Shown here piece by piece: positions 14,501-31,693 of a stretch of DNA of 40,189 bases. The translations under genes and the position numbers were made by a program. Every line of letters begins with the position of its first letter. Position 1 is the first letter of the stretch. The notes beneath the pieces were generated by a model. It was given only the letters and a program-made list of their open reading frames with translations, did not search any database and had not been told where the DNA came from. Origin of the DNA: a virus. The stretch is taken from positions 1-40,189 of the IMG/VR virus record IMGVR_UViG_3300042562_001705. One strand, 5' to 3'.

Positions 14501-14777
14501 TCCGTTACTCGATGCCAGTTCCGCGAGAAAATATGTCAAAGATATTAAGGAATACTTAAACCAATATTGTCTACAGAGTTTACCAGTTGTAAACCCAGAG
14601 TTTTTAAGTTACCAATATTCTTCTTCATACGATTCGACTGGTTCATATTTGTCACCGGTTATCACGACAATCGGGCTATACGAGAATAATCAATTGGTCG
14701 CCGTGGGAAAAATGGGTCGACCTTTGAAAAACTTGATCGACTGGCCACTCAACATTGTTGTCCGTTTTGATACTTAA
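11529..14777 (+). CDS. FG-GAP beta-propeller fibre protein with split dockerin-like EF-hands
   Basis: A 1082-aa protein. The N-terminus (MIKQFSAGDITVRPF) resembles that of the preceding 369-aa protein. Residues about 251-745 hold seven FG-GAP/integrin-alpha-type repeats. Their starts read FGESVS, FGYSVAVRDNFLVIGSP, FGNSVAIDSDVMVVGAP, FGWSVAIDSGSIVIG, FGKTVAISNNTALIG, FGRAVSIENNFAAI and YGYSVSVCSDFLAVGAP, consistent with a seven-bladed propeller. Two calcium-loop motifs follow: D864-V-N-Q-D-G-V-F-D-I-Y-D875 and D962-I-D-G-N-G-K-I-N-T-N-D973. Each is followed by a helix with a YLQ motif, as in type I dockerins. The C-terminus (VITTIGLYENNQLVAVGKMG) matches the end of the 369-aa protein. A calcium-stabilised receptor-binding fibre is the likely role; receptor and partner are unknown. 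Confidence 0.85.
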   Translation: MIKQFSAGDITVRPFKTFKNWVVQSLDSASVDRYGSSTYYNSIAEINEGKKITSIFFPSGSAFYTSSAEPMNPSGKYARNIYSLTNTMFYKNAGNPIQLFGVERWGTDRITGKKEIREINDRIITLALNQSVWGEKVRPNTVKILDNSNRHTTFRIYDDGYTNLYISGSQFSDYSKIGGVLNLAPRPYFDTASIQYFVTQNDGTTDYISFEVAKEYASTGLNVSYVSHSVSWSFDESAARNYFQPENEHFGESVSCWYKYVAVGASMDEYSLSTARQGYAAIFKYDSNVGGHRLIKKFYCPFSQNSLAQEFGADTSFLLSLENNNFLMLEQSDFSSSYLEDSFGYSVAVRDNFLVIGSPTGSLYASGSLEFLSGSHPGFVYVYQKDKGGIDNWGILNALVGSSNGDLFGNSVAIDSDVMVVGAPGVSGSEGAAYVYRRKRFMVTGSAETGSAENSASIYDSIQDDACDGVPRISGSSYLVVGNYTWTRETVLSSSVLQSGDKFGWSVAIDSGSIVIGTNKTGYGYASVFTASYSGICPTASWGEVSRLYADNSLGDLDAGSPLYANDVSNTISSNGFGKTVAISNNTALIGCAYDKAFVPYQPYPGDKTVLGAAYFYQNISLCGTASFYKVLKTFGDRSIDTNNNFGRAVSIENNFAAITSWPDRLSRLVDYATGSFILEDYSYDSTSSQDPRGVLGRVVLYNYDDVNEVWKLTGELKQNKEEYKPANLYGYSVSVCSDFLAVGAPVVNEATASATSSIFDHNTQISASFPSNVSGSVFIYPMSNYQVDPYIGNVFYKNGYFVLTTTGSSFRNIFTGTGPSGFNLEYQGTHTIYEHEYLVSIRPGEFNYSTNPSSLVNNPLAFDVNQDGVFDIYDIDLIMRYLQKKKFLDDFVFDDDGLVLEQDTLQDYSWWNNDILMIESEDVLVREPLFTDGGVPLYANPFTRAAFEYIENNLVSTGILDIDGNGKINTNDGYILSLYYLQTLNPTSVAPLLDASSARKYVKDIKEYLNQYCLQSLPVVNPEFLSYQYSSSYDSTGSYLSPVITTIGLYENNQLVAVGKMGRPLKNLIDWPLNIVVRFDT

Positions 14778-16657: not shown

Positions 16658-19600
16658 ATGACAATAGACACATACGAAAAATTAAACATTGGTATCTCGC
16701 GGGTAGATAAGATTGTTCACGTCTCGGATATTCATATCAGACTAACCAAGCGACACGAAGAATACCGCCGTGGATTCGAGAAGTTATACGCCGAAATCGC
16801 CAAGACTCCAGAAAACACGCTCATCATAAACACCGGAGACATTTTTCACTCGAAGGTTGATCTTTCTCCGGAACTAGTACAAACCGGGTGGCAATTCCTA
16901 AAGGCACTGGCCGATCTTCGCCCGACCCTTCTCGTCGCGGGAAACCACGACTGTTTGATGGCAAACGCCGCACGGTTGGACGCGGTTTCGCCTATCGTTG
17001 AATGTTTGGCGCACAAGAATTTGTTTTATTTGAAGGACAGTAAGCTCTATGGTGCCGCCAATATTCTCATAAACAACATGAGCGTGTTCGGAGACCCGAC
17101 CGAATACATAAAATTTCCCGCAATTTCGAAGAAGATCAAAAACGAGTTTGACACCAAAATTGCGATATATCACGGGCCAGTACTTGGGTCTGTGACAGAC
17201 GTTGGCTACCAGATCACGAACCGAACCATAATGGTAGAAAAATTTGACGGGCACGACATTGTTATGTTGGGCGATATTCACAAGGCACAGGATTTACAAC
17301 AATACAATCCAGCCGAGGGAAAGCCCATTATTAGATATGCCGGATCGTTCTTGCAACAAGACCACGGAGAGGCGCTGGCCGGTCATGGGTTTTCGCTGTG
17401 GGACGTGGCGACGAGGGAGTATTTACATGTCGAAATTCCAAATGAATATGGATATTTTACAATCGACGTAGAGAACGGCCAACTTGTCACCGACGTTTCT
17501 TCGCTGCCGAGCAAGGCAAAATTGCGGGTTAGACACAAAGAAACATCGACCGGCGAGTACAAGCGAATAGTTGCCGAGTTGAAGACCAAGTACGCAATCA
17601 GCGATGAAATTTATATGCGTCTGGACCCCAACGATGGTATTAAGAAAATACAATCGGTTGATGTGTCAAGTTTAGTCCAGATTGGAAGCGAAGATTACCA
17701 AAACAAACTTATCACCGAGTGCTTGAAGGCTAAATACCCAGACTCGATGAACGATGCTACGATAGCCGAGGTTTTGAAGATAAACAAGGAACTTAACGCA
17801 ATAGTGAAAGTTGGTGGCCGAGCCAGAAACGTCAATTGGAAACCCATCCGGTTTGAGTTTTCCAACATGTTTAGTTACGGGGAAAATAACGTGTTGGATT
17901 TTACTAAGTTGCAAGGTAACTACGGAGTGTTTGCCGCCAATGCAAGCGGAAAGTCTTCGTTGATGGATGCACTTTGTTTTACAGTATTCGATAAATCGGC
18001 ACGGGCGTTTAAGGGGGTGTTTGTTATGAACGACCAGAAAAATTCATTTTTTGGAAAATTTGAATTTGAAATCAACGACGTAAAATATTTCATCGAAAGA
18101 AAAGGCACGCGAGACAAAAAGAATAATGTTAAGGTCGATGTTGATTTTTACTGGATTCGCGGCGACGAAAAGGTTCCGCTGAATTCCGACCAGCGGCGCA
18201 GTACAAACGAAGTTATCCGCGATTATTTGGGAGATTACGAAGACTTCATATTAACTACACTCGCATTACAGGGCGGTAAAGGTTCTTTTATAGACATGGG
18301 ACAGTCGAATCGCAAAGAACTTCTTTCCCAGTTCATAGGACTGGACTTGTTCGACAAACTCTCGGAAAAGGCATCCGATGCCGCCAAGGAGATAAACGGT
18401 GCGATCAAAACGTTCAATAAAGAGCATAGCCAATTGCGGGCAGAATCGTTAAAAAATGACTTGTTACTGTTGGAGTCAAAATTACTGGACCTCACAGACA
18501 GAAAGGAAGCGTACACGAGCAAGAGACAGCAGTTGGAAGATGCGGCGAAGGCCGAAGAAGCCAAGATCGTGCGATTACAAAATGTACCAGCTACTATAGA
18601 CGGTATCGTGGGCGAGCGTGGCGCATTAACGGCGCAGAACGTAAAGATGGCGGCGGCAATTGAAGTCTACACTAAAGAGATCGGTGAATACAAAGCCGCT
18701 CACGCCGCGCTTCTGCTAAAGCTCAATGAGTTTGACGCGCAGACATTGAAGGACTGCGCCGAAAAACACGCAAGTCTTGGAAGATTGAAGCAAAAAACCG
18801 ACAGCGAGTTAGAAAAACTAAAGGTCGTCGTTCGGGAAAAAAAAGTAAAAATAGAACACCTTGAAAAGCATGAGTACGACAAGAACTGTAGATATTGTTG
18901 TAATAGTATATTTATAAAAGACGCGGTTGCTGCCAAGGAAAGTTTGGTGAAGGACATGGCCGAGGGAAAAGACTTGGTACAAAGTTCCAAAAAGTTTGCC
19001 GAAGACATGTTGGCATTAGAACCGTCTGTTCAATTATATCAAAACCTATCAAACCTAAAGGCGCAAGTTAGTGCGGCGGCGGCGCAGGTTTCTAAAAAAG
19101 AACTCGATAAAAACAACGGGGAATCAGTTATAGAAAAGAACACCCGACGAGTCGCTACTATAAACGAACAGATAGCATTGTATGAGCAATCTAAAACGGC
19201 AATCGAATCCAATAAAATTATTGAAGTTGAGATTGCCAGACTAAAGGTGGAATTGTACGGGGTTAACTCGACGTTAAAAACGATCAACTCCGAATACATT
19301 GATGCATACAGCAAGAAAGTCTCATCCACGGACCAAAAGAAATTAATCGAGGCCCAGATTGAAAAGATGGTAGAATATGAAGCACAGAGCGCGGCATATC
19401 AGTATTATCTCGTAGCAGTGGGCAAAGACGGTGTTCCTTATCAAATCATTTCTGATGTAGTCCCCAGCATTGAACAAGAAGTCAACAACATACTGTCGCA
19501 AATTGTAGAGTTTACGATGGAACTAGAAACCGATGGTAAAAATGTCAACGCATACATAAAGTACGAAGACAGGCATTGGCCATTAGATTTAGGTTCTGGC

Positions 19601-19870
19601 ATGGAAAAATTCATGGCGTCATTGGCGCTTCGGGTCGCGCTTGTAAATATTAGTAATCTACCAAGACCAAACTTTTTGGTCGTGGACGAGGGCTTTTCGG
19701 CGCTGGATGCTTCTAATATGCCGTTAGTCCACTCCCTTTTTGACTACCTCAAGTCCAACTTTGAGTTTATTATTATAATCAGCCATTTAGATGCGATGCG
19801 AGATATGGTCGATAAACAGATCGAAATAAAGAAAGAAAACGGGTTCAGTAAGTTGGATAATACGGTCTAA
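16658..19870 (+). CDS. Mre11-Rad50 (SbcD-SbcC) fusion, combined gp47-gp46
   Basis: A 1070-aa single frame joining two normally separate subunits of the recombination nuclease. Residues 1-350 are the Mre11/SbcD phosphoesterase: D24 and H26 (HVSDIHIR), NTGDIFHSK, VAGNHD, IYHGPV and MLGDIHKAQ. From about 385 comes Rad50/SbcC: FEFSNMFSYGENNVLDF, a variant Walker A at A426-A-N-A-S-G-K432-S, a long coiled coil, a zinc hook C744-R-Y-C747, a signature LGSGMEKFMASLALR (about 977-991) and Walker B with LVVDEGFSALD. It would process DNA ends for recombination-dependent replication. In T4 and E. coli the parts are two genes in the same order. No internal stop or ribosome binding site suggests separation. 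Confidence 0.95.
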   Translation: MTIDTYEKLNIGISRVDKIVHVSDIHIRLTKRHEEYRRGFEKLYAEIAKTPENTLIINTGDIFHSKVDLSPELVQTGWQFLKALADLRPTLLVAGNHDCLMANAARLDAVSPIVECLAHKNLFYLKDSKLYGAANILINNMSVFGDPTEYIKFPAISKKIKNEFDTKIAIYHGPVLGSVTDVGYQITNRTIMVEKFDGHDIVMLGDIHKAQDLQQYNPAEGKPIIRYAGSFLQQDHGEALAGHGFSLWDVATREYLHVEIPNEYGYFTIDVENGQLVTDVSSLPSKAKLRVRHKETSTGEYKRIVAELKTKYAISDEIYMRLDPNDGIKKIQSVDVSSLVQIGSEDYQNKLITECLKAKYPDSMNDATIAEVLKINKELNAIVKVGGRARNVNWKPIRFEFSNMFSYGENNVLDFTKLQGNYGVFAANASGKSSLMDALCFTVFDKSARAFKGVFVMNDQKNSFFGKFEFEINDVKYFIERKGTRDKKNNVKVDVDFYWIRGDEKVPLNSDQRRSTNEVIRDYLGDYEDFILTTLALQGGKGSFIDMGQSNRKELLSQFIGLDLFDKLSEKASDAAKEINGAIKTFNKEHSQLRAESLKNDLLLLESKLLDLTDRKEAYTSKRQQLEDAAKAEEAKIVRLQNVPATIDGIVGERGALTAQNVKMAAAIEVYTKEIGEYKAAHAALLLKLNEFDAQTLKDCAEKHASLGRLKQKTDSELEKLKVVVREKKVKIEHLEKHEYDKNCRYCCNSIFIKDAVAAKESLVKDMAEGKDLVQSSKKFAEDMLALEPSVQLYQNLSNLKAQVSAAAAQVSKKELDKNNGESVIEKNTRRVATINEQIALYEQSKTAIESNKIIEVEIARLKVELYGVNSTLKTINSEYIDAYSKKVSSTDQKKLIEAQIEKMVEYEAQSAAYQYYLVAVGKDGVPYQIISDVVPSIEQEVNNILSQIVEFTMELETDGKNVNAYIKYEDRHWPLDLGSGMEKFMASLALRVALVNISNLPRPNFLVVDEGFSALDASNMPLVHSLFDYLKSNFEFIIIISHLDAMRDMVDKQIEIKKENGFSKLDNTV

Positions 19871-19882: not shown

Positions 19883-19909
19883 GCCATAGGGGTTATAATA
19901 ACCTATGGC
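19883..19909 (+). promoter_or_regulatory. Hairpin sequestering ribosome binding site and start codon
   Basis: GCCATAGG (19883-19890) and CCTATGGC (19902-19909) are perfect 8-base inverted repeats. The right arm contains the ATG at 19905. The AGGGG Shine-Dalgarno candidate (19888-19892) begins in the left arm. An alternative fold pairs GCCATA with TATGGC and GGTTA with TAACC around a TAA loop, with a two-base bulge. Either way initiation of the following fibre gene would need unfolding, suggesting translational control. Confidence 0.6.
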
Positions 19910-22094
19910 TCAAATCACAGATTATACCGACACATATTTTTTAGTATCCGACTTCAACGGCACATTCTGCGCGGGCAAAAACTCGTTTGTAATTAACCCG
20001 ACAAACAACGTAATACCAGACACAGAGATTGTTGTTAGAGCATACGACTCAACTGGCAATGTAATGCCGGTAAGCCGAGCGGCACCACAATATGCTAAGT
20101 ACGCCGAACAAACCCACGCCGGATACGTGTATACTTGCTTTACGGCGGCAGGTACTGTGTCTGGCGTTGGTCGGCTAGAGATTGGGGGAATGGTGGTCAA
20201 CGTTGGTGACTATACTGGTAGCATCGCTTATTATCAAGGCGAAGCATATCCAGTGAATGCGTCTACACGATTGCCGCTAACACAGACTCCTGTCGCGACA
20301 CCATTTCCACAAGAGAGTGCGGTGTTGATAAAAAACATTCTGATAGACATTACACAACCGACAAAATCGGAAGTGAGGTTTTTTGATTTCCCCAGTGTAA
20401 GTGTACATTCTCAGATTTATCCGACCCCAATTTTTCCTTATACATCGTATAAGATGGCAACCGGGTCTATATCAGCAATTGCGGTCGCTCCAAAGCATAA
20501 TTCTGTCGGGGATTACGACTATCAGTTTGATACGCCATTATATCAATTATTTTTGAAGGCCGGGACAAACTTCGTTTCTTCGATGGAGGGGGAAAAGATC
20601 AGGATTAAATCTCCGAGGATAAAAAAGTTTACATACACTAGCCTATCCAATAACGAGGTAATTAAAGAAAATATTACACTTCAAACGGATTTCATCGCAA
20701 ATATAAAACGGGTGGTCAACAGCAATTCTATATTATTGGATATTCCGTTTTCTACGGTGTCCGAAATGGTCGGTATTTCGAATGAAGATTCTCCATACGC
20801 GAAGAATAATCTCGTTGAAATTAAAGGGTACACTGTTAATGACGATCCTCTAAAGCAGAGCGTTTTTCACAAAAAGAATTTTTATACTCTGAGCATTGAC
20901 GACGGAGACTTTGAGATATTTTACAAAGACATTGACACCGAGTTGTCGCTTATGCCGTCTGGGAGCAAGTTTTTGTTTGACGTGGAATGTAATTCTTTGC
21001 GGCTACTTTGTGGAAACTTAGATTCTTATAAAATATATGGTAAAAGCTTAAACAGCCCAGAAACATCCACTCTATTATGCGAGGGAAAAATAGAGCCAGA
21101 CGAACACCTCGTTTCTACTAAATTTAACAATGGTGTTTATAACTCCCCCGGCAATTTCTACAGCCAACCCTATCTATCCAAATATTGGCTTGTTAATGGT
21201 AGTTGCACAATGTCGCAGGATAATTCTACGTTAATCGACGGTGCGAGGATAAGTCACCCCGCAAACACTGACCAATCAAGCTATGTCATATTTAAAGATA
21301 ATACGTCCGTGGGCACGCGGAGCACTCAGTACGTCGACTATTCTTTGGGCTCGAATTCCTATTGGTACGGAGACACCAACGCGTTCGTAAATTATGGTAT
21401 ATTCCCGTCGGCGTCCTATGGGGGGCTGTCTAACATACCGATTCTTTCGGGATACGCCGGTTCGCAGGAAAATTTAATCTCCGGGTCAATTCATGATAGT
21501 AACCCAATAAAGCTGCGCCAACACACTCTATACAGACTTTCGATGCGGGTACGGGCAGCGGCTACCAACAGCAGCAACTCTGCAATGTATGTTTACTTTT
21601 TAAGTGGACCAAATAAGACGAAAATAGGTTATATAGATAATTCTTACAATTTTGGTGCCAACGAGGTGTATTCTAATACGTTTTTCGTCAATTCGACTAC
21701 GTTCGGTACAATTATCCTCGTTCCGGTATCGGGCGAATGGAGTATTTCCGCGTTATCGATCAAGCCATATCAAAACGTTGATTATTCAATCGACTCGTTT
21801 GCTGTCAAAATACCGCACAAAAACTTCGTAACAAACGAGTTATATGAGGTAGAAGTAGAACTTTATGACTCGGCTGGCGCGCTGGCTTACGGTAAAAACT
21901 CATACACGTTTAAATATAATAAGGTATTCTCTCCGTTGAAAAAGCAGGTATTTATAGATCCGGCTGGCTTGAACGAGCAGGCCGGTGGAGGAAGTATACC
22001 GGACATAAGTTCTGACACAAACTTTTTATATATAAAAATATTCGGAACGTGGTATCGTACTCCAATAGCAACGTCTCCACAGCCGGGGCCATAA
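19905..22094 (+). CDS. Tail fibre-type virion protein
   Basis: A 729-aa beta-rich protein. The first 110 residues form a domain with Val/Tyr/Gly-rich strands. The centre alternates short strands and loops. A region at about 430-620 (SYVIFKDNTSVGTRSTQYV and HTLYRLSMRVRAAATNS) resembles a carbohydrate-binding-module jelly roll. The C-terminus (NFLYIKIFGTWYRTPIATS) resembles the terminal strand found in many phage fibre proteins. No enzyme motif is seen. Its start codon lies inside a hairpin. It directly precedes the glycan-modification island, which makes it a candidate substrate or a co-regulated adsorption protein. Function is inferred from composition and context. Confidence 0.7.
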   Translation: MAQITDYTDTYFLVSDFNGTFCAGKNSFVINPTNNVIPDTEIVVRAYDSTGNVMPVSRAAPQYAKYAEQTHAGYVYTCFTAAGTVSGVGRLEIGGMVVNVGDYTGSIAYYQGEAYPVNASTRLPLTQTPVATPFPQESAVLIKNILIDITQPTKSEVRFFDFPSVSVHSQIYPTPIFPYTSYKMATGSISAIAVAPKHNSVGDYDYQFDTPLYQLFLKAGTNFVSSMEGEKIRIKSPRIKKFTYTSLSNNEVIKENITLQTDFIANIKRVVNSNSILLDIPFSTVSEMVGISNEDSPYAKNNLVEIKGYTVNDDPLKQSVFHKKNFYTLSIDDGDFEIFYKDIDTELSLMPSGSKFLFDVECNSLRLLCGNLDSYKIYGKSLNSPETSTLLCEGKIEPDEHLVSTKFNNGVYNSPGNFYSQPYLSKYWLVNGSCTMSQDNSTLIDGARISHPANTDQSSYVIFKDNTSVGTRSTQYVDYSLGSNSYWYGDTNAFVNYGIFPSASYGGLSNIPILSGYAGSQENLISGSIHDSNPIKLRQHTLYRLSMRVRAAATNSSNSAMYVYFLSGPNKTKIGYIDNSYNFGANEVYSNTFFVNSTTFGTIILVPVSGEWSISALSIKPYQNVDYSIDSFAVKIPHKNFVTNELYEVEVELYDSAGALAYGKNSYTFKYNKVFSPLKKQVFIDPAGLNEQAGGGSIPDISSDTNFLYIKIFGTWYRTPIATSPQPGP

Positions 22095-22113: not shown

Positions 22114-22141
22114 TTGACAATTAAAATTTTGGTTATATAGT
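22114..22141 (+). promoter_or_regulatory. Sigma70-like promoter for the glycan-modification island
   Basis: TTGACA at 22114-22119 and TATAGT at 22136-22141, 16 bases apart, match the bacterial housekeeping consensus at 6/6 and 5/6 positions. The intergenic ATATTTAT motif is absent here. The predicted start point is only about two bases before the ATG at 22150, so the message would be nearly leaderless, or the true start lies elsewhere. Confidence 0.5.
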
Positions 22142-22149
22142 TTTAGGTT

Positions 22150-25100
22150 ATGCAAAAATTAAATGTATCTGCACATACATCGTACGTCGGGGAGACTGGA
22201 ATAAACCATCATTTTAGATCATTTTTAAGGGAACTTTCTAAGCACTGCAATCTGAAGGTTAGGAATTTTACAGTCGGAAGTACGTGGGGCGGGATGAACT
22301 CCACGCCGCATAACAACGAACCATATTTTAACGAGATCGATAAAAGTATTCTGTATCGACAGACTTTAACTGACGACGGAGTAAGAACCGATCACCCGAT
22401 ATACACTGACTATACTGGTAAGTTCGATGTAAATTTAGTATCAGATATTGCTAACCATTATTACTTTTTCGAGCAATACAATGGCCCAAAGATCGCGTAC
22501 TTTGCGTGGGAAAGTACGCGGATACCCGGAGCATTCTTCGAAAAATTAAAAGAATTCGACGAAGTTTGGGTACCGAGTACTTGGCAAAAAAAGAATTTGT
22601 GTGAGCAGGGATACGACGAGAACAAAATAAAAATCGTATCGGAGGGAGTTGAGAAAAATACATTTTATCCAGAAGAGGTCTCTTACGATAAATACTATTC
22701 GGACGGAAGATTCAAGTTTGTCATGTTTGGAAGATGGGAATTTAGAAAGTGCACCAAAGAAATTATTCGCACTTTCCTAGACACTTTCACGCAAGATGAA
22801 CCAGTCGATTTGATTCTTTCTGTTGATAACGGGTGGGCTGTGGACGAATGTAAAAGTACACAGGCAAGATTGATACGCCACGGGTTTCGAGATGACAGAT
22901 TAAAAACAATTAGTTTTTGCGATAGAGAAGACTACGTTAAGTTTCTTAAAAAGGGTCACGTATTTCTCTCGTGTTCTCGCGGAGAGGGGTGGAACTTGCC
23001 ATTGATCGAGGCAATGTCATGTGGCACGCCGTCTATTTATTCCAACTGTTCTGCGCAATTGGAATACGCCAGTGAAAAGGGATTGCCGGTCAACGTTCTA
23101 AGACAAATCCCCAGTGATACTGACGATGGGCTGTATCACGAGCCAGATTTTAAACATCTTTCAACGGTAATGCGAGATGCGTATGTCAATTATAGTCAGC
23201 ACAAGGAAAAGGCGGTAAAGGATTCCGAAAGCATTAGAGAAAAATTCTGCTGGGAAGTCGCGGCAAAAATCGCATCGGAACGGATAGATGCCGTTTACAA
23301 TAAACACGCGGACAGAAGATTAAAAGTCCTTTATATCACTCCACACTTATCTACCGGCGGATGCCCGCAATTTCTATTAAAAAAGATTAAAATATTGGGC
23401 AATCAGCACGAACTACACTGCGTTGAGTATGCCAACTACGGCGGATACACGATCCAGCGGAAACAAATTCAGGAAAAGTTAAAAGAACGATTCTACGAAG
23501 TGGGGCAAGATAAGCAAGAAATTGTAAATATAATAAAACGAATTTCCCCCGACGTGGTCCACTTTGAAGAAATGCCAGAATATTTCATGGACGACGCCGT
23601 TGCTAAAAACATATACGATTCGGCCAGAAAATACTCTATCATAGAAACATCGCACGATAGTAGTTTTAACCCAGCCGGGAAACGATTCTTCCCAGACAGA
23701 ATGCTTTTGGTCAGTCCGTACCAAAAAGAAAACTTGAAGTCCCTTAACATTCCATCGGAGGTGTACGAGTATCCGCTGTCAATTAATATAAGAAAACCGA
23801 GAGCCGCCGCATTGAAGACTCTTAATTTAGACCCGAAGAAAAAACACGTAGTTCACATCGGATTATTTACTCCTCGGAAAAACCAAGCCGAAATTGTCGA
23901 GTATGCAAAAATGCTGGTCGATTACCCGGTACAATTTCATTTTGTCGGAAATCAGGCACCTAACTTTGAGAGTTATTGGGGTCCGATCATGAAAAATTTT
24001 CCGGCCAATTGCACGTGGTGGAACGAAAGAAAAGACGTAGAGAACTTTTATCAGGCGGCGGATTTGTTTTTATTTGTTTCTAAGGAGAACATCGGTGACA
24101 AAGAAACGAGTCCGTTGGTGCTCCGAGAGGCGGCGTCTTTTAACGTACCGACCTTGATGTACAACCTACCAGTGTACGTGGGCATGTACGATGAATATGA
24201 CAATGTTAAATATTTAAACAAAGATATGAATAAAAATTATAATATGATTCTAGAGGCTATCCAACTCGCACCGTCGGGCACAGAAGCTAAAAATAAAATG
24301 GAAGTCGAATTCGGGGATGTCGTGGTAGATTTGGGAGCAGGTACTGGAAAATGGTCAAATGCCGCAGTAAAACGGGGCGCAAGTGAATTGTATAGCTTCG
24401 AGCCAATCGCGAGAGATGCACTGGCGTTAAAACGTAATGTACCAGAAGCAACGGTGTTCCAATTGGCAGTGAGTCACAAGAACGAAGTGATTGAATTAAA
24501 AGGCACCGATAACAGTGCCAACAAAGTTGTAGCAATAACATTGTCCGACGTGCTGAATTTAGTGAACAGAACGATCAACTTTATTCACATCGACATTGGA
24601 AATTTTGTTACCCACATATTCGACGATTTGTCATACAGTGACTGCTCCAAGATAAATAAGATGCTGATTAAGCTCGTTGACACTGGTTCATTGTCCGAGT
24701 TCTCGGACACATTAAAGTCTAAAGGATTTCATTTGGAGTACCAGCCGACACCCGACGGTTTTTATGTGACCGCACAATTTGTGCGGATCGCCGATGTAAA
24801 TATTAATTACAATAACACCGATAACAAAATTGAGTATTCTTCAAAGACAGATATTCCCGATGCCACCGTCACCGTGAGAGACATTGACTCGAAAATGGTG
24901 ATGTGGGCCGCGAACCATGCGCCTCTGGTGCAAAACATAGGGTATTGGATAATACCCGTCGCAAAACAATATCGCGATTTTGAAACCGACCCACTGTTCG
25001 GTGGATTAACAGTGGACATTTACCAAAAAGATCAGCTTATATTTTCAAAAGATTTTAGAATAAAGCACTTGTCTATAAAAAAACCAAAGACAAAAATACG

Positions 25101-25731
25101 CAACAACTTTTCTCCGTGCTATGACAATTATATGGAGTTTTTTGTTCACAGGATTTACGAAAAATATATGGCCGGGAAATCATTTGATGTTATCGTAGAT
25201 GTAGGGGCCAATGCTGGTATGTGGGTGGAATATGCCCGGAGCGTGGCAAAGTATAAAAAAATATACGCGATTGAGCCCAACGTTCAGGCATTAAAAATAC
25301 TCAACGATTCATTTACGGAAGAAGAGCTTACCGTCGTAGACAAGGCGCTATATCCTACCGACGGTGAATTGGAATTCTTCGTGGACCCAGCCAACTCGAC
25401 GATATCGTCCATAACCAGTCTCTCGCATCTCAGCGCCACATATAAGGTCAAATCTATTTCATTTAAATCGTTCGTAAAAGAGTTCGGGATTGATACAATC
25501 GATTTAATGAAAGTGGACATTGAAACGGGCGAATACGGTCTATTTGGCTCGTTTGCTCAAGACGATTTTGATAAGATTAACAACTTATTGGTCGAATATC
25601 ATTTATTTGATGGACGCACGTACGAAAAAGACGCAACCAATTTAGTCAATACATTTAAATCGGCGGGATTTTCCGTTGAAATATTCCCGCAACATTCCGG
25701 TGGCGGATTCATTTTTGGGACAAAAAAATAA
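22150..25731 (+). CDS. Four-domain GT4-GT4-methyltransferase-methyltransferase fusion
   Basis: A 1193-aa cytoplasmic enzyme without signal peptide. Residues 1-385 are a GT4-like glycosyltransferase (WVPSTWQKKNL; EGWNLPLIEAMSCGTPSIYS with the E-x7-E pattern). Residues 391-710 are a second GT4-like unit (ITPHLSTGGCPQFLLKKI; GLFTPRKNQAEIV; SPLVLREAASFNVPTLMYN). Residues 715-877 are a Rossmann methyltransferase (VVVDLGAGTGKWSNAAV) whose FkbM-type catalytic motif is degenerate (HIDIGNFV). After a beta-rich linker (878-985), residues 990-1193 are an FkbM-type O-methyltransferase (VIVDVGANAGMWVEYAR; MKVDIETGEYGLF). It would transfer two sugars and methylate the product. Sugar donors and acceptor are unknown. 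It opens the island behind a sigma70-like promoter. Confidence 0.88.
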   Translation: MQKLNVSAHTSYVGETGINHHFRSFLRELSKHCNLKVRNFTVGSTWGGMNSTPHNNEPYFNEIDKSILYRQTLTDDGVRTDHPIYTDYTGKFDVNLVSDIANHYYFFEQYNGPKIAYFAWESTRIPGAFFEKLKEFDEVWVPSTWQKKNLCEQGYDENKIKIVSEGVEKNTFYPEEVSYDKYYSDGRFKFVMFGRWEFRKCTKEIIRTFLDTFTQDEPVDLILSVDNGWAVDECKSTQARLIRHGFRDDRLKTISFCDREDYVKFLKKGHVFLSCSRGEGWNLPLIEAMSCGTPSIYSNCSAQLEYASEKGLPVNVLRQIPSDTDDGLYHEPDFKHLSTVMRDAYVNYSQHKEKAVKDSESIREKFCWEVAAKIASERIDAVYNKHADRRLKVLYITPHLSTGGCPQFLLKKIKILGNQHELHCVEYANYGGYTIQRKQIQEKLKERFYEVGQDKQEIVNIIKRISPDVVHFEEMPEYFMDDAVAKNIYDSARKYSIIETSHDSSFNPAGKRFFPDRMLLVSPYQKENLKSLNIPSEVYEYPLSINIRKPRAAALKTLNLDPKKKHVVHIGLFTPRKNQAEIVEYAKMLVDYPVQFHFVGNQAPNFESYWGPIMKNFPANCTWWNERKDVENFYQAADLFLFVSKENIGDKETSPLVLREAASFNVPTLMYNLPVYVGMYDEYDNVKYLNKDMNKNYNMILEAIQLAPSGTEAKNKMEVEFGDVVVDLGAGTGKWSNAAVKRGASELYSFEPIARDALALKRNVPEATVFQLAVSHKNEVIELKGTDNSANKVVAITLSDVLNLVNRTINFIHIDIGNFVTHIFDDLSYSDCSKINKMLIKLVDTGSLSEFSDTLKSKGFHLEYQPTPDGFYVTAQFVRIADVNINYNNTDNKIEYSSKTDIPDATVTVRDIDSKMVMWAANHAPLVQNIGYWIIPVAKQYRDFETDPLFGGLTVDIYQKDQLIFSKDFRIKHLSIKKPKTKIRNNFSPCYDNYMEFFVHRIYEKYMAGKSFDVIVDVGANAGMWVEYARSVAKYKKIYAIEPNVQALKILNDSFTEEELTVVDKALYPTDGELEFFVDPANSTISSITSLSHLSATYKVKSISFKSFVKEFGIDTIDLMKVDIETGEYGLFGSFAQDDFDKINNLLVEYHLFDGRTYEKDATNLVNTFKSAGFSVEIFPQHSGGGFIFGTKK

Positions 25732-25732
25732 T

Positions 25733-26362
25733 ATGGCAACCGGAGTATACAAAATAACAGAAGAGTTTGAGCAGCAATTGGCCAAATACACGGGCGCTCC
25801 GCACGTTATAACGGTGGATAACGCAAGCAATGCACTATTTTTAAGCTTGTATTATGAAAATATAAAGGGTAAAACCGTTACTATCCCAGCAAGAACATAT
25901 CCCAGCGTACCGTGTGAAATTATTCATGCTGGTGGGCACGTTGAATTTGAACCCGCAAATTCAAAGACCATTAAGGGAGCTTACCAGCTAAAGCCAACTC
26001 GGACGTGGGACAGCGCCCTGCGATTTACGCACAACATGTATATTCCCGGGGCGTTTATGTGCGTATCGTTCACCGGTCCATATAAGCATTTTAAATTAAG
26101 CAAAGGCGGAGCGATCCTGACGGACGATTACCATGCGCATCTGTGGTTTAAACGAGCGCGGTATAGTGGACGGCGGGAATGTTCGTATCACGACGATAAT
26201 TTTGACATGCTAGGTTGGAATTTTTACATGATGCCCGAATTGGCCGCTAGGGGATTATTGATGATGAACCAATTTTATAATTTTGACGGTACTCCAAAAT
26301 CCAACGAAGATTTGGAACTACCGTACCCAGACCTATCAAAATTTAACATTTACAAACAATGA
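25733..26362 (+). CDS. Compact DegT/DnrJ/EryC1-type sugar aminotransferase
   Basis: A 209-aa protein from the ATG two bases after the previous stop; an upstream in-frame ATG at 25676 would overlap the fusion gene by 56 bases and is not preferred. The fold-type I aminotransferase pattern is visible: NASNALFLSLY, TVTIPARTYPSVP, the cofactor-contacting D93 in TWDSALRF, and SFTGPYKHFKLSKGGAILTDD with K118 the likely PLP lysine. Typical family members have about 370-400 residues. Here the linker between the Ala-Gly strand and the Asp motif is shortened and the C-terminal domain is missing. It may be a reduced nucleotide-sugar aminotransferase or an inactive relic. The gene overlaps a 35-codon ORF by ATGA. 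Confidence 0.75.
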   Translation: MATGVYKITEEFEQQLAKYTGAPHVITVDNASNALFLSLYYENIKGKTVTIPARTYPSVPCEIIHAGGHVEFEPANSKTIKGAYQLKPTRTWDSALRFTHNMYIPGAFMCVSFTGPYKHFKLSKGGAILTDDYHAHLWFKRARYSGRRECSYHDDNFDMLGWNFYMMPELAARGLLMMNQFYNFDGTPKSNEDLELPYPDLSKFNIYKQ

Positions 26363-26466
26363 GCGGGATCAGTATAAAAAATTTAAAAGAGGCGGTCGGA
26401 AACATTACCGGCGTTTTTCATGTTGATGCCGTGTGGTGGGGAGACCAGTATTTTGTTCGAAATTAA
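26359..26466 (+). CDS. 35-aa micro-ORF between sugar-modifying genes
   Basis: A 35-codon frame starting in an ATGA overlap with the aminotransferase stop and ending one base before the ATG of the acyltransferase (26468). Product: a short helix-like start (SIKNLKEAVGNITG) and an aromatic end (VWWGDQYFVRN). The tight coupling on both sides favours translation. It could be a real small protein, a coupling leader that carries ribosomes to the next gene, or the stub of a deleted gene. No family recognised. Confidence 0.4.
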   Translation: MSGISIKNLKEAVGNITGVFHVDAVWWGDQYFVRN

Positions 26467-26467
26467 T

Positions 26468-27016
26468 ATGCGAGGATTTAATAATTATGAATCGGGAGAG
26501 TTAGTTGCAGCCGGAATGTCGGTTGGAGACGACGTAAATATAGCAAACGATGTTATAATACACAATCCACGAAACATCGTAATTGGTAGTAACGTTAGAA
26601 TAGACACGCAATGCATGCTGATCGCTGGCCATGACACCAAAATTACAATCGGAAACGATGTTCACATTTCTGCTGGATGTTATTTTTACGGGAGTTCTGG
26701 TAATATTACACTGGAAGATTGTACTTGCACGTCGGGTCGTTGTATTCTATACACCGCGAACGATGATTACACCGAGGGATACATTGCTAATTCTATGGCA
26801 GATGAAAAATATAAAAAAGTAACAACCGGGGATATTTTATTGCGGAAACATGCGCTCGTGGGATGTTACACCGTGATTTTACCCGGCGTGGTGTTGGATT
26901 ACGCGACCTCGGTTGGTGCCCACTCACTGGTCAACAAATCGACCAACCCGTTTGATATAATTGCTGGCGCACCCGCCAAATTCATAAAAAAGAGAAAAAA
27001 CGTATATTTAAGCTGA
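26468..27016 (+). CDS. Hexapeptide-repeat O-acyltransferase (left-handed beta-helix)
   Basis: A 182-aa protein from ATG 26468; an in-frame ATG at 26420 would add 16 residues overlapping the micro-ORF. Imperfect hexapeptide repeats run from about residue 18 to 165 (VIIHNPRNIVIGSNVRID; TKITIGNDVHISAGCYF). The family's closing motif follows (GCYTVILPGVVLDYATSVGA; IIAGAPAKFIKKRK). Length matches the WbbJ/maltose acetyltransferase type, which forms trimers and acetylates sugars from acetyl-CoA. In context it probably acetylates an amino or hydroxyl group on the glycan made by the island. Its stop overlaps another micro-ORF start. Confidence 0.88.
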   Translation: MRGFNNYESGELVAAGMSVGDDVNIANDVIIHNPRNIVIGSNVRIDTQCMLIAGHDTKITIGNDVHISAGCYFYGSSGNITLEDCTCTSGRCILYTANDDYTEGYIANSMADEKYKKVTTGDILLRKHALVGCYTVILPGVVLDYATSVGAHSLVNKSTNPFDIIAGAPAKFIKKRKNVYLS

Positions 27017-27117
27017 TGTATAAGGGAAAAAAAGTTATATTGACGACGACTGCGTGCAGAAGGCCCGAGTTATTACACGCGGCAATAATTGGCCTGCGGC
27101 GACCAACTACTGCATGA
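27016..27117 (+). pseudogene. 33-aa ORF resembling the start of a glycosyltransferase
   Basis: ATG at 27016 overlaps the acyltransferase stop, and the TGA at 27115 overlaps the next ATG (27114). The product, KGKKVILTTTACRRPELL followed by HAAIIGLRR, looks like the first beta-strand and helix of a GT-A glycosyltransferase (strand, Arg-Pro-Glu-Leu-Leu, helix). It stops just where the complete GT2 gene begins. It is most simply a remnant of an ancestral glycosyltransferase gene displaced or duplicated here, but it could still be translated as a coupling leader. Confidence 0.4.
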
Positions 27118-28856
27118 AATTAAGTATAATAATATCTTCATACAAATTTAAGCAATATATTAAAGAATGCGTCGATTCTATTTTACGGCAGCGCATGTAC
27201 TTTGAATATGAAATCGTCATACGAGACGATGGCACAAACGATGGAACGCACGAATATTTACTGTCGTTGTACGGGAATAACGATAAGATAAAGCTGTTGG
27301 ATTCTGCAACGAACGTTGGCGCGGCAAAAAACCTCATTACATTGTTGAACTCCACGTCCGGAGAATATGTAGCACACCTAGACGGTGACGATGTATTGTG
27401 CGACGCCGACCACTATCAACGGTCGGTAGACTTTTTAGATGCAAATCAAGAATACGCGATGACAAGTGGAGGTTACAAATATATAAAGGGGGGAGAGATA
27501 ACCCCGGTGGAACATTGGTTGTGTGGCGGAAAGCAAGTCGTAGAATTAAAAGATCTGTTAGTGGAAAATTACATATCTCTTGGTCGGGTATTTAAAAAAT
27601 TCAATGTACCAGAACGGCTATTTGACGGCGCAATATATCCAGACTGGATCATGAATTTTGAAATATTGAAGGCTGGTAAGGGGTATTGTTTCGTTAACAA
27701 CTTAGTTGGATATTATCGCATTCACAGCGGCGGGATGTTCACGATGGGCACTGACGAAGAAAAAAACAGAAAAAAAGAAATAGAAAAACTCGAATTAACC
27801 AAGAGATACACGTTATTTAAAAATAAAGTAATTACCATAGTTGATAGTTATGTCCGCAACGATTCTGTAAAAAATAAGCTGTCAAACATGCTTGACTGGT
27901 TAAATACCGACGGACACGAGATTTTATTGGTGTCGAATACGGTCATAGACCCGGAACTAATAAAAAAGACAAAGTTTTATTTATATGATAGTAGAAATCA
28001 ACTGTTCAAAGAAAAATATGAAAACGTACCATCGGTAGATCTTTGGCGGGGATATGATACTTTTGCAATCCACGATATAGTTTTCGATTTTCAAAGGCAC
28101 GGGCTGTCCGTGTTAATAAATCTATTTAATTCTTTGTTATATGCTAAAAGCCAAGGATATGTGTATTTTCAAAGATTTGAAGTGGACGATTTATACGGGG
28201 TACATTCTAGGGATTTTATTTCAAAAGTACCGGAAAAATGTCACGTGGAAAATAAGAAGGGACTATTTTATTACAATAAACAAAATAACCCACCGGACGT
28301 TTCTTTCCATTATTATTACTGCGAGATTGATCACTTTCTAAACAAAGTTAAAAAAATAACGTGCGAGTCAGATTACGTAGAATATCTGCGCAATTTTTAT
28401 GGTAACAAAGACTTTAAAATTGTAGAAACATTTATATATGACAATTTAACGGCGAATGGAGATTGCGAGATTTTATCACGGTCGGGGAACCAGATGCAGA
28501 CAGAAGATTTCACCGACACCCAGTGGAACACGGAAACGTCTGCTAGCGGACTTGATAAAAAATATCGCGACTGTGCAACTAAGATATATCAAATAAAACC
28601 TTTACATGGTGCAATAAACGCATTAGGATACGTGGTATTTACTTATTCATATAAAGATTCGCACACGCAACGTAGAATAGAAGTGGAAACCGACGATGGA
28701 AACATTACCAATCTTGTTCATGCGACGTATTCTATGGGCGGCTGGGTGTGGAATATGTTACCGGACAAATGCAAATCAATTATTGTTTATGACGGCGACG
28801 TACTACTATATAAAGAATATGTTAGCGAGTGCATTTCTTACATCAACTTTAATTAA
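27114..28856 (+). CDS. GT2-family glycosyltransferase with C-terminal extension
   Basis: A 580-aa protein from ATG 27114, chosen because KLSIIISSYKFKQYIKECVD is the normal first strand of GT2 enzymes; an in-frame upstream ATG would add 20 unrelated residues. The GT-A domain (about 1-230) shows EIVIRDDGTNDGT, NVGAAKNL and the metal-binding D-x-D in YVAHLDGDDVL. Residues about 270-450 (EILLVSNTVIDPELI, KFYLYDSRNQLF, YFQRFEVDD) resemble a second glycosyltransferase-like domain seen in other viral sugar enzymes. The C-terminal 100 residues look like a beta-sandwich, similar in style to the linker regions in the two large fusion enzymes. Donor and acceptor are unknown. Confidence 0.85.
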   Translation: MKLSIIISSYKFKQYIKECVDSILRQRMYFEYEIVIRDDGTNDGTHEYLLSLYGNNDKIKLLDSATNVGAAKNLITLLNSTSGEYVAHLDGDDVLCDADHYQRSVDFLDANQEYAMTSGGYKYIKGGEITPVEHWLCGGKQVVELKDLLVENYISLGRVFKKFNVPERLFDGAIYPDWIMNFEILKAGKGYCFVNNLVGYYRIHSGGMFTMGTDEEKNRKKEIEKLELTKRYTLFKNKVITIVDSYVRNDSVKNKLSNMLDWLNTDGHEILLVSNTVIDPELIKKTKFYLYDSRNQLFKEKYENVPSVDLWRGYDTFAIHDIVFDFQRHGLSVLINLFNSLLYAKSQGYVYFQRFEVDDLYGVHSRDFISKVPEKCHVENKKGLFYYNKQNNPPDVSFHYYYCEIDHFLNKVKKITCESDYVEYLRNFYGNKDFKIVETFIYDNLTANGDCEILSRSGNQMQTEDFTDTQWNTETSASGLDKKYRDCATKIYQIKPLHGAINALGYVVFTYSYKDSHTQRRIEVETDDGNITNLVHATYSMGGWVWNMLPDKCKSIIVYDGDVLLYKEYVSECISYINFN

Positions 28857-28864
28857 AACTTAAT

Positions 28865-31693
28865 ATGAAAATTATAAATATAACGCCGGGAATCATTGCC
28901 ATTCCACCAAATGGCTGGGGGGCAGTGGAAAAAATTATTTGGGATTACCACACAGAATGGACGCGGCTGGGAATTAAGAGCGAAATAAAGTACTTGAGTG
29001 ACACCACTTATAACGATAGCACCGTCGTACACGTTCACGTCGCCAACTTAGCTAACATGTGTCACGATAGAAACATCCCGTACGTTTTTACAATCCACGA
29101 TCATCATGCATTTTTATATGGAAGAGACTCGCAGTGTTTCAGGGACAATCTAAAAGCAATTGAAAACAGTATAATTTCACTCTCGCCGTGCAAATACTTG
29201 GTGGACTTTTTTGGTAATAAAAAATTAAGATATTTTTCTCACGCGGTAAACACGGACACCTTCGTCAACAAAAAATACACGGTTCCAAACGACAAAATTC
29301 TTTGCGTTGCTAACAATGGATATTCACACGACCAGTCGGTAGACAGAAAAGGATTCGCGATTGCAATCGAGGCTGCAATGCGGCTAGACTTACAAATTAC
29401 AATAGCCGGTCCTAAAAACAATAAAAACTTTTTCGATATACTTTCTCCCGAACTTAATAATTACAAAAAGTTAACGAAGCTATATGATTTGAACGAGGCC
29501 GACTTGGTAGAATTATACAACAACAATTCTATATTCCTGCACCTGTCGGAATTGGAGGCGGGGCATCCGAACTTAACACTGCTCGAAGCAATGGCGTGCG
29601 GGTTGCCGGTGGTTGGAACGTTTGAATCACCAAAATACAAAGGGATGTATGTCGTGGAACGTAGTGTCGAGTGCGCCGTTGTCGGAATATCGGAAGTAAT
29701 AAAAAATTACAATCAGTACAAACTCGCCGCCGAGGAAAACGCCAAGGAAAACTCATACGCAAATAAGGTGGTTGAAATGGCCGATATATACAACGAATAT
29801 AAAGAAAAAATATTTTCAAATAAAATATTACACAATTATAAAAATTGCAACAAATCTCACCGAGAAGCAGAAAACAATATATCCATTACATTCAACGATG
29901 GACCAAAGGTCGAGATCACCGGGCCGGTAGAAAAAAAGTATAAGATCAGGTTCGTTGATTCAAAGACTAGCGAATGTATCCACGAAGCGCAAATATATAA
30001 CAATATGTGGACGGTGGCCAGCCGCAGATATTTTATAAAATGGAAGATAGAAATATTTGAAATGTTTGTCGATGGAACGGAATCCTTGGTAAAAGAATAC
30101 ATTTTAAACTTGAGAAACAGGCGCGTTAAAATAGTACTGGACACCGAGAGTCTGGGTGATTTAATTGCATTTGTTGAACCGGTGAGTGAGTTCCAGAAAC
30201 AGCATCAGGCTAACGTCGATTGTGTAGTATATAACGCCGCGCTGCGAAATATATTTAAAAAGAGTTACACCAACATTAATTTCTTGGATGTTAATGGGAG
30301 CGGCGATGAGTATTTTGCTACATATTGGATTGGGTATTTTAACGACTGGGCAGATAGAATAACCAACGACCCACGCACGATTTCGTTGACGGCGGTGCCG
30401 GGAACTATCCTTGGCATAGGAACAATGGAACTGCGCCCAAATTTATCATTTCACAAAAAAGTCCGAGACTCAGCACAAAAGAAATACGTGTGTATATGCA
30501 CGCAAAGCACTGCACAATGTAAATATTGGAATAACCCAAACGGGTGGAAGACTCTTATAGCATATTTAAACGGCCTTGGTATGGAAGTTTGGTGCATCGA
30601 TCTTCACAATAACTACGGAAGTAATGTGATGAACCAAATGCCGGTGGGGGCGATTGACAAAACCGGGGAATTGTCGCTTGAAGAGCGGATGGCTCAAATA
30701 GAAGGCGCAGAATTCTTCGTTGGCCTTGGCTCTGGCATGTCTTGGTTGGCATGGGCGGTCGGCAAACCGGTGATACTAATCAGCGGGTTTAGTCAACGTT
30801 GGGCGGAGTTTTTTACTCCACACAGAATCATAAACGACGACTTTTTTAATCCTCGGCGGCTGTTTGATAAATTTCCGTGCCACGGGTGCTGGAACGATCC
30901 GTCTTGCCGATTTGACAAAGGCGACTGGATGTGGTGTCCGCGTGGAAAAGATTTTGAATGCACAAAAAGCATTAAACCGGAACAGGTTATAGAACACGTA
31001 AACCAAATAATAAACAAGAAAGACAATCCAGAATTTGATTATAATCCACAACCAACGTGGTCAAAATATCTGCTGCACAGAGAATTATTGGAAGATACGA
31101 GCATATATGAAAAATTGTTTCAGGTCGAACCCGGTGACGTGGTAATGGATGTTGGTGCCCACGTTGGGGCGTTTTGCCAATCTATCAAACCACACAGCCC
31201 CTCGAAAATCTTTGCTGTTGAGCCGAGTCAGTTGCGAGGAAATACACTAAAGCGCAATCTAAAAGATGTTAACGCCGTAATTATCAACAAAGGAATACTC
31301 GACACGGTTAAAACAATACCCGGAGGGTTGTTATTTGATGGAATTGTGGAGGATTTGCATTGTACCACGTTCAGAAACATCATAGATGAACATCACATAT
31401 CAAAGATAGATTTCTTAAAACTTGATTGTGAGGGCGGAGAGTACGATATTATAAACTTAGAAAATATCGAATGGATAAAGGCCAACGTGAGTAAAATATC
31501 GGGGGAATGGCACCTTCACGGACCAGCCCTTCGCGAAAAGTTCAGAAGTTTCAGGGATAACATACTGGTCAATTTCAAGACGTATTATGTGTATAGCGTC
31601 GATAACGTCGATATTAAATGGAGTCTTTTCACCGAGGACTTTTTGCAGCGATATACCGATATACATCTTTACATAGATAACCGAACACCATAA
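28865..31693 (+). CDS. GT4 / autotransporter-type O-heptosyltransferase / FkbM methyltransferase fusion
   Basis: A 942-aa protein. Residues 1-320 are a GT4-like domain (NGWGAVEKIIWDYH; AGHPNLTLLEAMACGLPVVG). Residues about 338-415 are a beta-rich strand-loop-strand region. Residues about 419-720 resemble bacterial autotransporter O-heptosyltransferases (TibC/BAHT, GT9-like): KIVLDTESLGDLIAFVEPV, NPNGWKTLIAYLNGLGMEVW, FVGLGSGMSWLAWAVGKPVI, and a cysteine cluster C672-x2-C675, C691, C699 (FPCHGC; DWMWCPRGKDFEC) like the family's iron-binding motif. Residues 733-942 are an FkbM-type O-methyltransferase (VMDVGAHVGAF; FLKLDCEGGEYDII). In bacteria BAHT enzymes put heptose on Ser of adhesins. Here the acceptor may be a virion or host surface protein. 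Confidence 0.88.
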   Translation: MKIINITPGIIAIPPNGWGAVEKIIWDYHTEWTRLGIKSEIKYLSDTTYNDSTVVHVHVANLANMCHDRNIPYVFTIHDHHAFLYGRDSQCFRDNLKAIENSIISLSPCKYLVDFFGNKKLRYFSHAVNTDTFVNKKYTVPNDKILCVANNGYSHDQSVDRKGFAIAIEAAMRLDLQITIAGPKNNKNFFDILSPELNNYKKLTKLYDLNEADLVELYNNNSIFLHLSELEAGHPNLTLLEAMACGLPVVGTFESPKYKGMYVVERSVECAVVGISEVIKNYNQYKLAAEENAKENSYANKVVEMADIYNEYKEKIFSNKILHNYKNCNKSHREAENNISITFNDGPKVEITGPVEKKYKIRFVDSKTSECIHEAQIYNNMWTVASRRYFIKWKIEIFEMFVDGTESLVKEYILNLRNRRVKIVLDTESLGDLIAFVEPVSEFQKQHQANVDCVVYNAALRNIFKKSYTNINFLDVNGSGDEYFATYWIGYFNDWADRITNDPRTISLTAVPGTILGIGTMELRPNLSFHKKVRDSAQKKYVCICTQSTAQCKYWNNPNGWKTLIAYLNGLGMEVWCIDLHNNYGSNVMNQMPVGAIDKTGELSLEERMAQIEGAEFFVGLGSGMSWLAWAVGKPVILISGFSQRWAEFFTPHRIINDDFFNPRRLFDKFPCHGCWNDPSCRFDKGDWMWCPRGKDFECTKSIKPEQVIEHVNQIINKKDNPEFDYNPQPTWSKYLLHRELLEDTSIYEKLFQVEPGDVVMDVGAHVGAFCQSIKPHSPSKIFAVEPSQLRGNTLKRNLKDVNAVIINKGILDTVKTIPGGLLFDGIVEDLHCTTFRNIIDEHHISKIDFLKLDCEGGEYDIINLENIEWIKANVSKISGEWHLHGPALREKFRSFRDNILVNFKTYYVYSVDNVDIKWSLFTEDFLQRYTDIHLYIDNRTP

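Follow-up and report, generated by a model that had tools for sequence, protein, structure and literature searches.

TibC is the defining member of the BAHT family of protein O-heptosyltransferases, to which AAH also belongs; it is dodecameric, and those BAHTs with tested activity modify protein serines, the bacterial substrates being autotransporter passenger domains (PMC4358343). Relative to the LPS heptosyltransferase WaaC, a beta-barrel and an iron finger are insertions unique to TibC, in which D110 is the catalytic base, T226, K230, R286 and W305 bind the sugar, P300 sets the donor stereoselectivity, and Cys 339, 342, 358 and 370 coordinate Fe (PMC4358343). In phages, comparable glycan clusters have been read as host-surface modification (PMC7824862); a term search of the text of that paper gave no mention of heptosyltransferase, FkbM or aminotransferase. 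Glycan clusters of phages are already known, and what looks new in the locus described here is a phage BAHT clade and a 209-aa DegT enzyme.

The window, which is the whole stretch of DNA that was analysed, is an entire IMG/VR virus record of 40,189 bases. It encodes a baseplate wedge, a DnaG-type primase, a fused SbcD/SbcC-like nuclease, terminase large subunit, portal and prohead protease, and judged by its sequence it is a fragment of a T4-like phage with a contractile tail. By terminase, the closest isolates are Microcystis phage Mel-JY01 (51%) and the Flavobacterium phages of the immuto group (48%). In the nuclease (16658-19870) the SbcD-like and SbcC-like halves are joined in one 1070-aa protein, with homologues of similar length in two other loci (L009, L032). 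Among the tail genes there is also a 1082-aa protein (11529-14777) with FG-GAP repeats and a type I dockerin domain.

The island consists of five co-directional genes at 22150-31693 (Table 1). The first-pass annotation had proposed five enzymes here, with four or more glycosyltransferase (GT) domains, three methyltransferase (MT) domains, one aminotransferase and one hexapeptide acyltransferase. All five ORFs are open on the + strand, and a Pfam search returned GT and MT matches and every other enzyme class claimed. The tally is three GT4, one GT2, one GT9-type heptosyltransferase, two FkbM, one weak MT, DegT and a hexapeptide acyltransferase; this makes at least five GT domains by Pfam, and fold search points to one more, which is GT-A-like and would be the sixth. 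Because homologues begin there, 25733, 26468 and 27114 are probably the true starts of the aminotransferase, acyltransferase and GT2 genes. From its model (pLDDT 73; best Foldseek matches heparosan synthase 2 and chondroitin polymerase), the GT2 protein probably has a second GT-A-like domain (~aa 240-465) and a C-terminal beta domain; it also has a weak GtrB-like PHROG match. None of the five island genes is a nucleotide-sugar synthesis gene (epimerase/dehydratase or kinase), NDP-4-keto-sugar dehydratase included. The island had been placed between a fibre gene and packaging genes. The packaging genes are there, since two small genes and then terminase, portal and protease follow on the 3' side, but the fibre label of the upstream gene (19905-22094) is unproven because that gene has no Pfam or PHROG match.

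Table 1. Coordinates in the window of the island genes, their key domains and the promoter-like elements
Feature	Position	Strand	Details
Sigma-70-like promoter TTGACA-16-TATAGT before island	22114..22141	+	11/12 match
Fused protein, 1193 aa	22150..25731	+	GT4a aa 1-388; GT4b 389-705; weak FtsJ/FkbM-like MT 706-885; beta domain and FkbM MT ~1013-1175; Pfam GT4 and GT4 (PF00534 1.5e-19, two stretches), FtsJ-like MT 2.3e-9, FkbM 1.6e-16
Mini-AT (miniature DegT sugar aminotransferase), 209 aa	25733..26362	+	Pfam DegT 2e-15; PLP Lys118 at 26084-26086, Asp93 at 26009-26011
Left-handed beta-helix (hexapeptide) acyltransferase	26468..27016	+	Hexapep PF00132 4.9e-8 (Pfam, ORF 26420-27016)
GT2 glycosyltransferase	27114..28856	+	PF00535 1.2e-21 (Pfam, ORF 27054-28856)
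Fused protein GT4c - BAHT heptosyltransferase - FkbM methyltransferase, 942 aa	28865..31693	+	Pfam GT4 2.2e-10, GT9 4.3e-10 / TibC_1st 2.2e-4, FkbM 5.5e-8
BAHT domain with N-terminal beta-barrel	29819..31012	+	Residues 319-716 of 942-aa protein; TibC E 1e-67
Iron-finger motif C672-x2-C675-x15-C691-x7-C699	30878..30961	+	Equivalent to TibC Cys 339, 342, 358, 370
TATATTTATA-like motif	586, 3467, 9700, 10353, 11515, 14782, 19874, 34437, 36452, 39155	+	Before mostly structural genes

The protein O-heptosyltransferase domain of the first-pass annotation was strongly confirmed. Residues 319-716 of the 942-aa protein align with TibC of enterotoxigenic E. coli (4rap/4rb4) over nearly the full TibC length, with 39% identity in 355 aligned residues, and are best taken as a full TibC/BAHT-type enzyme. 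The catalytic Asp is conserved (D432 for TibC D110), and so are the sugar-nucleotide residues (T549, K553, R608 and W627 for T226, K230, R286 and W305). The N-terminal beta-barrel is present, as the alignment starts at barrel residue 22 of TibC. At the tip of the TibC thumb, a beta-hairpin with F265 and V266, the V is kept and F265 is deleted, and P300 is replaced by Gly. No autotransporter acceptor and no AIDA-type repeat domain was recognised among the proteins searched in the 40-kb window.

How widespread is this enzyme in phages? The scan of viral contigs gave at least 586 BAHT-related stretches. The 96 distinct phage homologues all have the catalytic Asp and the Trp, 95 have the iron-finger Cys, and only 66 keep the equivalent of TibC R286. 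A maximum-likelihood tree splits 13 bacterial rows, TibC included, from 49 phage rows by a 100/100 branch, with the phage side far more diverse than the bacterial side; the source of the bacterial rows was a set of 398 evenly drawn Pseudomonadota genomes, 7 of which have a BAHT, the query was phage-derived, and the root of the tree is undefined. The phage clade looks undescribed, and the open-access literature gave no paper on a phage BAHT or a miniature DegT enzyme. Thirteen genes of ~1300 aa lie directly 3' of a BAHT gene, of which 8 are tail sheath and 5 are RNA-ligase/nucleotidyltransferase-like. Tail sheath is the next gene after BAHT in eight relatives from about three BAHT branches, and in the lineage of the window itself GT4-BAHT adjoins the set of terminase genes. 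The ~1300-aa proteins of five loci (L124, L125, L126, L127, L129) have weak RNA-ligase and cytidylyltransferase-like matches. Several other loci (L016, L017, L010, L018-L020, L023) carry a tandem pair of BAHT-type copies, of which the second can be aligned only from domain residue ~96-102 onward and seems to be without the beta-barrel.

The first-pass annotation took the degree of domain fusion, together with the protein O-heptosyltransferase domain, as suggesting a virion- or host-protein glycosylation system that may be undescribed. Its reading as a glycan-building island stands, but fusion in itself was rejected as the novelty: across related phages the same modules recur as separate genes, among them GT4(b)-beta-FkbM of 644 aa, GT4-BAHT of ~705 aa and BAHT alone. 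In the domain survey BAHT alone occurs 51 times, GT4-BAHT 37 times and GT4-BAHT-FkbM 3 times (the window, L122 and L136). In several loci the mini-AT follows a GT/FkbM protein within a single fused chain, and module content differs between related phages. Because relatives have the same modules as separate genes, we read the fusions as lineage-specific shuffling of recurring modules, the window being one outcome of a modular system.

The aminotransferase gene, an ORF of 228 aa in the first reading, was revised to 209 aa with its start one base past the preceding stop codon. Normal DegT enzymes have ~370-390 aa; relative to the DegT enzyme 9bgp, ~23 N-terminal, ~44 internal and ~106 C-terminal residues are absent, so that there is no complete C-terminal small domain. 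The predicted AF2 structure (pLDDT 88, pTM 0.87) has the large domain of fold type I by Foldseek, its top PDB matches being of DegT type and the best GDP-perosamine synthase (1.4e-7, TMq 0.63). D93, S112 and K118 are invariant in 41 mini-AT sequences, the Lys aligning with the DegT lysine. Stand-alone homologues are nearly all 208-215 aa long and end at the same residue. Across many phages mini-AT conservation is 75-87%; between phage copies whose synonymous sites are mostly saturated (pS ~0.6-0.9) the proteins are 78-89% identical, and dN of ~0.08-0.18 against a mostly saturated dS points to strong purifying selection. A frameshifted or truncated relic was rejected on the shared end residue and this selection. 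Since lengths and ends are constant, K118 and D93 invariant, and the confident model matches DegT aminotransferases, the mini-AT is, as far as sequence and model can tell, a complete 209-aa enzyme and not a fragment. An hhalign comparison of the mini-AT alignment with a full-length WecE-like protein gave no useful match, the diversity of the profile being low. A miniature DegT aminotransferase likewise looks undescribed; we know of no smaller fold-type-I PLP aminotransferase, and a search of the open-access literature was also negative.

At least 580 viral stretches encode relatives of the mini-AT. A T4-type major capsid protein was found in 21 of the 38 records searched, which include two BAHT loci without mini-AT in the stretch examined. 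In the seven MAGs that have a mini-AT a Gp23 search gave no match, but neither did any control. In bacteria the gene is rare, with 0/397 Pseudomonadota and 1/394 Bacteroidota, seed genomes aside. The single bacterial case (G734, L118) lies on a 3.15-Mb contig, adjoins a GT2 gene and is of the 213-aa paralogue type. Two loci (L038, at 6019-6648 and 8738-9373, and L040) have two paralogues, ~45% identical, in one cluster, and the lone bacterial copy resembles the second type. In Synechococcus phage S-SCSM2R (L107, 4438-12471) the mini-AT is 195 aa long and 32% identical, and its cluster also includes GTs, radical SAM, an annotated inosamine amidinotransferase and 2OG oxygenases. Another mini-AT is on a MAG contig, possibly a phage contig, that also bears a class II ribonucleotide reductase with a LAGLIDADG/intein insertion (L112, 3698-6556).

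The neighbours of the mini-AT give a hint about its function. A hexapeptide acyltransferase lies directly 3' in 35/61 scanned loci, with a PglD N-terminal domain in 21, and the next gene overlaps the mini-AT by 4 nt in 39/64 dereplicated loci. Acyltransferase homologues adjoining the mini-AT in relatives are 65-74% identical. On the upstream side lie GTs, FkbM methyltransferases and, in some cases, proteins resembling GDP-mannose dehydratase/epimerase. By analogy, the pair follows the PglE/PglD logic, as for 4-acylamino-4,6-dideoxy sugars. A mini-AT was found within ~8 kb of the BAHT in only 1/65 BAHT loci. Since only some phages have both, the two may act on separate glycans.

The host-like promoter of the first-pass annotation is indeed present before the island; by intergenic shuffles, 0.02 matches this good are expected over all intergenic sequence. 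A near-identical element, TTGACAAATAAAAATATGGTTATAAT, precedes the island of a relative (L036), and TTGACA-N10-16-GGTTATA has only these two copies in the loci examined. Another motif, ATATTTAT, has 12 copies on the + strand of the window, 10/12 in its 1.1 kb of intergenic DNA and lying 12-42 bases 5' of ten mostly structural genes, and it is enriched between genes in relatives too. The TATATTTATA-like motif overlaps the reverse complement of the T4-type TATAAATA, and is possibly a late promoter. No copy of ATATTTAT was found before the island. Because the island has a host-like promoter in its place, it may not be co-expressed with the virion genes; it may also be transcribed by readthrough from the upstream gene.

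Then what does the island make? It probably decorates a protein or a surface with a methylated, amino-sugar-bearing glycan. We put at about an even chance the reading that this T4-like phage uses the island to build a glycan in the cytoplasm, for protein O-glycosylation. The BAHT domain would take ADP-heptose from the host LPS pathway and attach the heptose to serines of an acceptor that is repetitive and rich in beta structure, most plausibly a virion tail, sheath or fibre protein, and the GT4 and GT2 domains would extend it. The mini-AT would aminate an NDP-4-keto-6-deoxy-sugar supplied by a dehydratase of the host or by one encoded elsewhere in the phage. The hexapeptide enzyme would N-acylate this sugar into the acylamino sugar used in the chain, and the FkbM domains would O-methylate the product. 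While enzyme classes, catalytic residues, operon structure and conservation are read directly from the DNA, we infer the substrates, the order of the steps, the acceptor and the biological role.

Counted for protein glycosylation are the TibC match with all reported catalytic, sugar-binding and iron-finger residues, the retention of the Asp, Trp and iron-finger Cys in phage homologues, the protein serines that BAHTs of tested activity modify, the tail sheath gene after BAHT in eight relatives, the place of GT4-BAHT beside the terminase genes in the window's lineage, the mini-AT/acyltransferase pairing and the purifying selection. No island protein has a transmembrane segment, as expected for cytosolic acceptors. 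Counted against it are the lack of a found acceptor, of the late-type motif and of an NDP-4-keto-sugar dehydratase among the island genes, the missing F265 and replaced P300, and that BAHT and mini-AT often stand apart; lipid-linked glycans, too, can be substrates of soluble GTs. The narrower reading is tentative, somewhat short of an even chance: an undescribed virion protein-glycosylation system of aquatic T4-like phages, in which an old and diverse clade of iron-finger O-heptosyltransferases would act on the tail, together with a roughly half-size, single-domain fold-type-I PLP aminotransferase, perhaps the smallest of its kind, that is conserved above terminase.

The main rival, a serious one that we find doubtful on balance, is host-surface modification, in which LPS core, O-antigen or capsule would be remodelled for superinfection block or altered adsorption, with the heptosyltransferase-fold domain acting on the LPS core. 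It agrees with the published reading of the cyanophage and jumbo-phage clusters (PMC7824862), with the weak GtrB-like match of the GT2 protein, with a host-like promoter in place of the late-type motif and with the varying module content of related phages. Against it, the GT9 domain is of BAHT type, with beta-barrel and iron finger, unlike WaaC (PMC4358343), and the island has no transmembrane protein and, by Pfam, no flippase, polymerase or lipid-carrier transferase among its genes. If instead the BAHT acted during infection on host adhesins, autotransporters or another host protein, the host-like promoter and the autotransporter substrates of bacterial BAHTs (PMC4358343) would fit, but the phage clade is separate and more diverse, with no sign of recent capture with a host substrate. 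A cognate host substrate would also often be missing, because bacterial BAHTs are as rare as counted above; we consider this quite improbable. T4-like phages glycosylate their DNA, and sugar enzymes could in principle decorate phage DNA bases. There is very little chance of this here, since the window proteins searched included no enzyme of base modification and gave no match to a T4-type DNA glucosyltransferase, and to our knowledge neither a BAHT domain nor FkbM methyltransferases belong to the DNA-hypermodification pathway.

BAHTs were defined as bacterial tools for glycosylating autotransporter adhesins, and a larger, more diverse phage branch would shift the presumed home of the family and offer a direct way into the glycosylation of phage virions, which has been little tested. 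How far a fold-type-I PLP enzyme can be pared down would be seen from a complete DegT enzyme of 209 aa. Between immuto and the window the mini-AT is 72% identical and terminase 48%; this conservation above terminase suggests an important role.

Compared with known systems, the window BAHT shares with TibC and AAH the N-terminal beta-barrel, the GT9-like core, the catalytic Asp, the Thr/Lys/Arg/Trp set and the four-Cys iron finger. It differs in being phage-borne, with GT4 fused in front and FkbM behind, in lacking the thumb Phe and a recognised autotransporter in the window, and in belonging to a separate clade. With the DegT/DnrJ/EryC1/StrS aminotransferases (GDP-perosamine synthase 3bn1, PglE-like) the mini-AT shares the large-domain fold, the PLP Lys and Asp and the N-acyltransferase pairing, but it has 209 aa against ~370-380, with ~44 core residues and the C-terminal small domain absent. 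Like the LPS/polysaccharide clusters of cyanophages and jumbo phages (P-SSM2 type; PMC7824862), the island combines GTs, sugar-modifying enzymes and methyltransferases in one polymorphic cluster; unlike them, it is without nucleotide-sugar dehydratase/epimerase, is heavily fused and includes a protein-glycosylation domain. The glycan cluster of Flavobacterium phage immuto (MW353177, ~49-60 kb), a T4-like relative, shares the mini-AT and GTs. There the gene after the mini-AT bears the annotation 'pilin glycosylation protein', and the cluster includes GTs and an epimerase, but the genes are separate, a full-length WecE-like aminotransferase is also present, and the cluster is far from terminase. 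The 1227-aa 'methyltransferase FkbM' gene of Microcystis phage Mel-JY01 (PP395634) has GT4a and BAHT in one protein upstream of the terminase set as the window does, while its BAHT is 38% identical and the mini-AT was not detected there.
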